From contig CAMZLN010000096.1 of NCBI GenBank assembly GCA_947311465.1, positions 1-37,351 on the forward strand: DNA of 37,351 bases, given 5' to 3'. Under the pieces are notes generated by a model, which saw nothing but the letters and a program-made list of their open reading frames with translations, ran no database searches and was not told the DNA's origin. A program made the translations under genes and the position numbers. The DNA is from an uncultured Saprospiraceae bacterium. GTDB lineage: Bacteria; Bacteroidota; Bacteroidia; Chitinophagales; Saprospiraceae. Shown in pieces: positions 9,063-11,906 of the stretch (within the stretch, counting starts at the first letter, position 1; every line of letters starts with the position of its first letter).

Positions 9063-9491
9063 ATGCGTTCATTAATTTTCCTTTCAATATTTTTTATATT
9101 CAGTTGTACGAATAACAGTACGACCCATAAAAAAGCATCCATTCCTAAATGTGCTGATATTAATAAAAATGAAATTCTTAAAAATAGCCCTTGGGATTCG
9201 AAAGAATATTTCAATGAAATGACCAATTTATTGTACAAAGAAAAAAATGTTCGATTTTACTATGATGGGAGAATCATGAAAAATGGAGCTACTTTTTTTA
9301 TAGTAAGATGTGTTGGCAAAGATTTTTGTGGAGATATATTTTTGTATTTAGGAGAAGGTGATTCCAATTCTGAAATTTTGTTATTGGATGACAGTGAGGG
9401 TGCAGAGCTTATCGGATTGCAGTATCACATGGAAGATTTGAAGTATAAATTGCATTTTATTTATGATTCAGTTGAAGAAATCAGAAAATAG
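9063..9491 (+). CDS. Hypothetical lipoprotein
   Basis: Signal peptide with lipobox (FFIFSC); no family recognised. Confidence 0.65.
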   Translation: MRSLIFLSIFFIFSCTNNSTTHKKASIPKCADINKNEILKNSPWDSKEYFNEMTNLLYKEKNVRFYYDGRIMKNGATFFIVRCVGKDFCGDIFLYLGEGDSNSEILLLDDSEGAELIGLQYHMEDLKYKLHFIYDSVEEIRK

Positions 9492-10364
9492 TTAGTTTTT
9501 CAATAATTGCGGAATATTACTTCCACTGATTCCTTGCATCATGATTGCATTTCTTCCTAGCTTGTAAGCAAAATCGATATCCCTTCCAGCTCCAAGTGCA
9601 TCATAGAATGCTACAGAAAATTTGATAGCGGCATCATCAGGCATGGCACGATTCATACCAATAACATTAGGAATAAATTTGACAATTGATTCAGCTTGCG
9701 TGGTTGAGTAGCAGGCATTCAATAATACACATTCTATAGAGTCTGCAAATAAAGAAAACAATTGAGCAATTGCATCGCCATCCACCAATTGTTGGTTTCC
9801 ATCTCCATTTTCAAAAACGAGCCCTTCATCCCCTTCTCCATGTCCAGAAAAATGCACAATGTGTGGAGATTCATCGAGAAGATATCGCCTTAAATCTTCG
9901 ACTCTCACCGCAAGTTTTGTAATCAATTTAAATTTATCTCTATGTTGAGAAAGTCTTAGTCCAGTTTCAATATTTCTTACTTCTTCATCAATTTTCAATT
10001 TCTGAGTCCCCTTGGGATTGACACCTAAAAAAAGAATAGTCTTAACATCTGAGTCATTTTTTGGAATAGGAGGAGTAGCGGCAACTGTCCCTGTAGAAGT
10101 GTCATTTGCAATCCAATTATCTTCAACATCATCCAATAAACTTAAAAGAGCATGAGCAATTCTATTCTGATTCATATTTGCATTAGCTTGAGCAATAATC
10201 CCCATATTTACTTCTCTTTCCAAAGCGTTAATTCGAGACATTTGGAGGATAAGCGTATTATGCAAATCATCGTCCTTATCTTTAGCTAAAGCCATAAAAT
10301 CTTTTGCTGCCTTTTTGAGTTTACCATTTATAATAAGGTCTTGAATAGATTTTTTATTAATCAT
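9492..10364 (-). CDS. CHAT-domain (caspase-like) protease with N-terminal EAD11-like effector-associated domain; bGSDM-activating protease candidate
   Basis: Track ORF starts at 10430, but the EAD-like domain begins at internal Met (MINKKSIQDLIINGKLKKAAKDF..., ATG at 10364). CHAT signatures: IVHFSGHGEGDEG (catalytic His) and CVLLNACYSTTQAE (catalytic Cys); VIGMNRAMPDDAAIKFSVAFYDALGAGRDIDFAYKLGRNAI. Confidence 0.92.
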   Translation of the reverse strand: MINKKSIQDLIINGKLKKAAKDFMALAKDKDDDLHNTLILQMSRINALEREVNMGIIAQANANMNQNRIAHALLSLLDDVEDNWIANDTSTGTVAATPPIPKNDSDVKTILFLGVNPKGTQKLKIDEEVRNIETGLRLSQHRDKFKLITKLAVRVEDLRRYLLDESPHIVHFSGHGEGDEGLVFENGDGNQQLVDGDAIAQLFSLFADSIECVLLNACYSTTQAESIVKFIPNVIGMNRAMPDDAAIKFSVAFYDALGAGRDIDFAYKLGRNAIMMQGISGSNIPQLLKN

Positions 10365-11148
10365 TATCACTAATTTGAATAAATTTGTCTTTAAGGAATT
10401 CGAATTGTGGTGCAGATGCAGATTCGCCACGAACTTTATTGATTTCTCCAGAACTCAAGGAAAAACTTAGTTCCTTCCAAGGAGTAAACCAAGATCTATT
10501 ATTTCGAATTTGTGCCGCTTTTATGCCGATAGCCAAATTGGTATCTCCTTCATAAATAATTTTAGCTTTATTTTCGGTAGATCTTTTCAAAGCAGCGTTT
10601 GCTTCGACTACTTTTTCAATTTCTGGACCATCAATTTTAAGGGATGCGTCATTTGAACCTAGCGCTTCAATACTAAATGATTTACTTTTCAGTACATCTG
10701 TCACAACATATATCTCGGAATCTTTCAATCTATCTTTATATCCTTGAGATTTTTCTTGAACATTAGCATCGTTTAGAAAAATATCCAATTGCAATAAATT
10801 AGTAGAATCCAATTGCGCATCCAAAAAAGAAAAGCTGATATTATTCGCGTTATTAAATGCAGATTCAAAACCAATTGATTTGGGCAAAAATCCTTTCAAA
10901 AGGCTCAAACTAAGCTTCATATCTACTTTTTTATCCAACAATCCACCTATTTCACTAGGAACGGGTTGATCTATTTTGTTTTCTGGAAGCTCTTCCGTTT
11001 TTTTAATAAACAAATCTGTGATATTGCCAACTGGGATTAAATGTCCTGTTTGATCTTTTGCAAATAAGTCGAGAATATGGATTGGACGAGGCATTTTTAC
11101 GAAATTGAAACCATGCTCACTGAGTAATTTTGATAATCTATCTGACAT
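10357..11148 (-). CDS. Bacterial gasdermin-like pore-forming protein (bGSDM)
   Basis: 263 aa. Matches remembered bGSDM architecture: LSKLLSEHGFNFVKMPRPIHILDLFAKDQTGHLIPVGNITDLF, SLSLLKGFLPKSIGFESAFNNANNISFSFLDAQLDSTNLLQLDIFLNDANV, EIYVVTDVLKSKSFSIEA, KIIYEGDTNLAIGIKAAQI, short C-terminal tail. Overlaps a downstream CHAT protease gene. Confidence 0.87.
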   Translation of the reverse strand: MSDRLSKLLSEHGFNFVKMPRPIHILDLFAKDQTGHLIPVGNITDLFIKKTEELPENKIDQPVPSEIGGLLDKKVDMKLSLSLLKGFLPKSIGFESAFNNANNISFSFLDAQLDSTNLLQLDIFLNDANVQEKSQGYKDRLKDSEIYVVTDVLKSKSFSIEALGSNDASLKIDGPEIEKVVEANAALKRSTENKAKIIYEGDTNLAIGIKAAQIRNNRSWFTPWKELSFSLSSGEINKVRGESASAPQFEFLKDKFIQISDND

Positions 11149-11525: not shown

Positions 11526-11906
11526 ATGATAGGTATGAAACGAACAGAAAAACGGGAAGATATCTTTTATGAGATACTAGAATATTTGTGGTACGGATTG
11601 ATAGAAGAAGCAAAGAAAAGTATTGAAAATATACCTAAGACGGAAGTGAAACACCAAAAAGCTTTAGACATACTAGTAGGGTATATTGAAAGACAAAAAG
11701 AGCTAATCCCTAATTATGGTCTAAGAAAACGTATGGGTGTAGAGAAAGAAAATGATAGATTAATAGCCCACAGACAAAAGAAAAATGGAATGAGTTGGTC
11801 TAAAAAAGGATCTAACGCTTTGGGAGTGTTGCAAATGCTAAAATTAAACAATCAAATTAAAAGCTTCCATAAAACAGGAATCTTCGATTTTAAATGGGTT
11901 GCATAA
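11526..11906 (+). pseudogene. Transposase C-terminal remnant
   Basis: 126-aa ORF resembling only the C-terminus of transposases: LWYGLIEEAKKSIENIP...YIERQKELIPNYGLRKRMGVEKENDRLIAHRQKKNGMSWSKKGSNALGVLQML. No DDE core upstream. Confidence 0.6.

Follow-up and report, generated by a model that had tools for sequence, protein, structure and literature searches.

In the window, that is, the whole 37,351-nucleotide stretch of DNA analysed here, two overlapping genes lie on the minus strand, as the original prediction had claimed, and they encode a bacterial gasdermin (bGSDM) and a CHAT-type, caspase-like protease that carries an EAD11 domain at its N-terminus (Table 1). The end of the gasdermin gene, with its stop codon, and the beginning of the protease gene share 8 bp, ATGATTAA, and the ATG that produces this overlap is most likely the translation start of the 290-aa protease, being preferred over an upstream GTG at 10430. 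On either side of the pair the adjacent gene is in the opposite orientation, and the one at 9063-9491 resembles a small lipoprotein. The surroundings had been described as a housekeeping region, and the flanking genes tested are indeed housekeeping or unknown (GrpE, thioredoxin-like, flavin reductase, LPG-synthase-like membrane protein, CrcB, glycosyltransferase 4 and DUF4920), with no PADLOC match among the other window genes tested. One other genome keeps the flavin reductase-flippase pair without the module, and a clean insertion site for the module was considered and set aside because the genes beyond this conserved pair differ. No Bacteroidota-type promoter motif was located at the operon, such motifs showed no excess above chance in the window, and a terminator search found none.

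Table 1. Coordinates of the gene pair, its features and neighbours, and of two sets of related loci
Feature	Position	Strand	Description
bGSDM gene	10357..11148	minus	263 aa, without cysteine; PADLOC and PDB sequence matches
EAD11-CHAT protease gene	9492..10364	minus	290 aa; most likely start ATG at 10364
EAD11 domain (PF19964) of the protease	10122..10358	minus	approximately residues 3-81, four predicted helices
CHAT (caspase-like) protease domain	9495..10052	minus	approximately residues 105-290, His175 and Cys218
Predicted autoinhibitory C-terminal peptide of the gasdermin	10357..10428	minus	residues 241-263 plus stop
Immediate neighbours	9063-9491 and 11526-11906	plus	no Pfam or PADLOC match
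EAD11-iSTAND genes flanking the bGSDM/EAD11-trypsin pair	L014:2396-3496; L015:73-1176		
EAD11 locus of G249	L094, contig C264, 1-10986		EAD11-264 aa, NB-ARC/TPR, TPR-CHAT, EAD11-S24, EAD11-CHAT

Judged by its sequence matches, the first gene product is a bacterial gasdermin, homologous to the N-terminal pore-forming domain, in line with the bGSDM-like character predicted for it. It matches the PADLOC bGSDM profile over residues 2-226 (2.8e-46) and, in phmmer comparisons over residues 7-215, the solved bacterial gasdermins 7n51 (1.5e-19) and 8sl0 (~1e-19), and the E-values of these matches rule out chance; the Runella gasdermin 7n52 is matched at 7.8e-06, and a Pfam search of the 263-aa protein gave no match. 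A comparison of both proteins with known structures had been proposed, and for the gasdermin it came out positive through the sequence matches to 7n51 and 8sl0, the structure predicted from the single sequence being unusable (pLDDT 31). Genome and viral contigs scanned with peptide patterns yielded no relative of the gasdermin, the viral contigs likewise none of the protease, and plasmids and phages gave no gasdermin match; a six-row bGSDM alignment was rejected as a basis for the pattern scan, its rows being too diverse.

The gasdermin contains no cysteine, a feature that the original prediction had not mentioned. In 21 of 26 aligned gasdermins of the same bacterial family a cysteine occurs at residues 4-13, and Cys3 of the Bradyrhizobium bGSDM is palmitoylated, a residue conserved in most bGSDMs (PMC9079055). 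Therefore, the window gasdermin is without the usual palmitoylation site, and this counts against its reading as part of a death module. The missing cysteine does not exclude membership of the bGSDMs, since the feature is common but not universal: the window protein groups with the gasdermins of L020, L021, L025 and L028, all of which are without the N-terminal cysteine, and those of L021, L025 and L028 likewise have no cysteine at all.

The second gene product was identified as a CHAT protease by Pfam (PF12770, 2.4e-11), and the His (HFSGHG) and Cys (LNACYS) motifs that had been read in it are both present, His175 and Cys218 being invariant across a 31-row alignment with the CHAT domains of other bacteria. 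The EAD11 domain, on which the original prediction was silent, matches PF19964 at 1e-16 in Pfam and at 3.7e-17 in the assembly-wide search; for both domains the E-values are again too low for a chance match. A model built on the 31-row alignment (mean pLDDT 82) comprises a four-helix EAD11, a disordered linker (residues 85-104) and then the protease domain, and Foldseek ranks SAVED-CHAT 8tl0 (1e-11) first, the C11 protease 6n9j second and then caspases, which bears out the structural part of the prediction for this protein as well; thus the protease has a CHAT fold with a His-Cys dyad, predicted to be caspase-like. SAVED-CHAT, the nearest solved structure to the window CHAT domain, differs from it in being activated via SAVED, not via an EAD, and in its substrate. 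SAVED is a sensor of CRISPR type III signalling. Among the 80 genome loci listed, the nearest CHAT sequences are almost all from filamentous cyanobacteria, with at most 59% identity over the CHAT part, and no gasdermin was found near them; therefore, the CHAT type of the window protease also serves other systems, which weighs against the death-module reading.

A candidate cut site was located by alignment, as Arg240-Gly241 of the gasdermin falls exactly on Leu247-Gly248 of the Runella protein in the phmmer alignment. Leu247 is the mapped Runella cleavage site, with a Gly at P1′ that matters for cleavage (PMC9079055), and a review (PMC9612521) of Johnson et al. (2022) describes bGSDMs as having Leu or Arg before the cut, which lies some 20 aa ahead of the C-terminus. 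Arg240 lies 23 residues from the C-terminus, so that the alignment gives the protein a short C-terminal peptide behind a predicted protease site about 20 aa from its end, as is characteristic of bGSDMs. A basic residue occupies this position in each of the seven family gasdermins compared that adjoin CHAT-type proteases and can be aligned here, the triplets being VRG in the window and G114, ARG in G005, VRS in G207 and G785, MRS in G045 and LKD in G270. We infer that cleavage would occur between Arg240 and Gly241 and would free the 23-residue C-terminal peptide. Homology, together with the aligned cut site and its conservation, gives good support to the logic assumed from the outset, in which the protease frees the pore former, and taken as a whole the pair is, with a probability of roughly 0.8, a bacterial gasdermin-protease cell-death module.

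In the same bacterial family, bGSDMs occur in 28 of 298 genomes, and in a phylum-wide sample of 396 genomes a CHAT-group profile matches the genome of the window and one other only. An anti-phage role of the pair would follow by analogy with the gasdermin family, in which a four-gene bGSDM operon protects against phage (PMC9079055). A different programme, such as developmental lysis or the release of cell contents, has in its favour that a CARD-NLR system akin to gasdermin systems governs the release of gene-transfer agents by lysis in Caulobacter (PMC13236601) and that the locus lies outside any defence island; however, we consider it very improbable in view of the phage protection by that operon and of the patchy distribution of bGSDMs, which is more readily explained for an accessory defence gene than for a gene of development.

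EAD11 was found joined to two unrelated protease classes, CHAT and trypsin, beside gasdermins. An EAD11-CHAT protein adjoins the gasdermin in the window and in G207, where a second CHAT protein is present besides it, while the gasdermin neighbour is a TIR-like-EAD11-CHAT protein in G114 and an LRR-Roc-COR-EAD11-CHAT protein in G270; EAD11-trypsin adjoins the gasdermin in G029 and G132. Other gasdermin-adjacent proteases are a TIR-like-CHAT protein (G005), a ROCO protein with a CHAT-like C-terminus and no EAD11 match (G045), CHAT-iSTAND (L003), CHAT (L009) and trypsin (L019), the CHAT parts of the G270 and G045 proteases having been assigned by phmmer. EAD11 is present in 24 of the 28 bGSDM genomes vs 115 of the 270 others (Fisher p = 1.2e-5, with genome size and relatedness ignored). 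Near the bGSDM/EAD11-trypsin pair of both G029 and G132 lies an EAD11-iSTAND gene for a sensor-like protein, whose EAD11 is under the Pfam cut-off and clear with a local profile, and in L003 iSTAND is fused straight to the gasdermin-linked CHAT. It is mainly because iSTAND alternates in this way between cis (L003) and trans (G029, G132) that we propose EAD11 as the dock for a sensor.

Based on these comparisons, the gasdermin module of the window is probably not self-contained, and by analogy its EAD11 likely docks a sensor encoded at an unlinked site; that this EAD11 needs a partner in trans is, in our estimate, moderately probable. The pair had been called a complete two-gene module, and of this the gasdermin and its CHAT protease stand, while the completeness is doubtful, since EAD11 is an adaptor and related loci supply a fused or separate sensor, whereas the window has no sensor gene. 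The EAD11-CHAT protein could instead sense the trigger itself or self-associate through EAD11, with no third protein involved, as would suit an overlapping unit of two genes only, flanking genes that face the opposite way without Pfam or PADLOC matches, and the known two-component bGSDM-protease pairs, some of them autoactive (PMC9612521). We regard this as rather unlikely, because no sensor domain can be recognised in the 290-aa protein and the related bGSDM proteases have a sensor either fused to them (LRR-Roc-COR, TIR-like, iSTAND) or adjacent as EAD11-iSTAND.

With a separately encoded sensor as the preferred reading, we propose that the gasdermin would be made inactive and restrained by its own C-terminal peptide, and that the co-translated EAD11-CHAT protease would stay idle until its EAD11 is engaged, and so clustered, by an EAD11-bearing sensor encoded elsewhere. 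Upon such contact, putatively triggered by phage, the activated protease could cut the gasdermin after Arg240, removing about 23 residues, and the N-terminal part could assemble into large pores in the inner membrane. The cell would then die or arrest, most plausibly stopping the spread of the phage. The coupling principle is that of the EADs, namely adaptor-mediated homotypic coupling (PMC8195603).

No EAD11 partner is encoded within the window, and the assembly (3.04 Mb, 83.5% complete) holds two EAD11 domains, that of the window protease and that of one further gene (L093:12319-12963, own genome, contig C264), which encodes a 214-aa protein made of EAD11 and a LexA-like S24 peptidase. A search of the same incomplete assembly for iSTAND gave no match. 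In the fusion protein EAD11 stands in place of a DNA-binding domain. Such EAD11-S24 fusions are rare, with two further cases, G192 and G249, in the 298 family genomes. As partner of the window protease the EAD11-S24 protein is a weak lead, and a gasdermin that answers DNA damage or phage-induced SOS through it is improbable. In its favour, it carries one of the only two EAD11 domains found in the assembly, its S24 domain (6e-16) comes with the conserved Ser136, Lys175 and Ala98-Gly99 site, the EAD11-S24 gene of G192 adjoins another EAD11 gene, and in G249 one 11-kb contig encodes EAD11-S24 together with EAD11-CHAT and carries all three EAD11 domains above the cut-off. However, the two EAD11 domains of the window's genome resemble each other at background level (score 65), bGSDM matches are absent from both G192 and G249, and another partner may be missing from the incomplete assembly. 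Bolder still, EAD11 could be an interchangeable plug that connects two protease classes to distant sensors, the sensor here being EAD11-S24, so that DNA damage or SOS would directly fire the gasdermin, which we consider a long shot.

The gasdermin-protease pair is of a known kind, and what is new is the EAD11 wiring, which occurs with two classes of protease. With the Runella bGSDM and its caspase-like protease, as summarised from Johnson et al. (2022; 7n52), the pair shares the short C-terminal peptide, the adjacent caspase-like protease and the aligned P1-P1′ positions, but it has Arg instead of Leu at P1, a cysteine-free gasdermin and a small EAD11-CHAT protease. With the Lysobacter CARD-NLR gasdermin system (Wein et al., 2025), as outlined in PMC13236601, it shares an adaptor on the protease that activates the death effector, whereas it has EAD11 in place of CARD and CHAT in place of trypsin, and, compared with that outline, its locus is without an NLR ATPase and a second protease. 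The combination of a CARD on a trypsin-like protease with an operon NLR-like ATPase, which characterises the CARD-NLR systems, was not found here, the window having no adjacent NLR-type gene. EAD11 likely docks an unlinked sensor in the way that the CARDs of these systems do. The EAD-coupled conflict systems (Kaur et al., 2020, 2021) share the fusion of EAD11 to a caspase-like peptidase, and their EAD partners may sit elsewhere in the genome, as proposed here, while the effector in the window is a gasdermin. The mark of these systems, an EAD joined to a protease or other effector, is present (EAD11, 1e-16), and the only candidate for a matching EAD elsewhere in the 83.5%-complete assembly is EAD11-S24, at background similarity. 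In the part of the literature covered, no paper was found that joins the terms effector-associated domain and gasdermin, and an earlier mention is possible.

The EAD11 pairs bear on the question of what triggers bacterial gasdermins, and they make the activation step directly testable. The EAD11 wiring resembles the inflammasomes driven by CARDs, with another helical domain in the place of the CARD, and its recurrence suggests how cell-suicide modules plug into separate infection sensors.

Two further arrangements were observed in the family. In G207 (L098:4148-6557), the EAD11-CHAT gene and a gene for a 205-aa CHAT-only protein, matched by phmmer and not in Pfam, precede the gasdermin gene, and a similar arrangement occurs in L186 and G785, the EAD11-CHAT member being seen in G207 only; two CHAT genes in this position suggest either a cascade of two proteases or a regulator pair. 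In G030 (L096:1395-5357), an EAD11-CHAT gene is followed by a caspase (C14)-GDSL lipase-like fusion in the place of the gasdermin.
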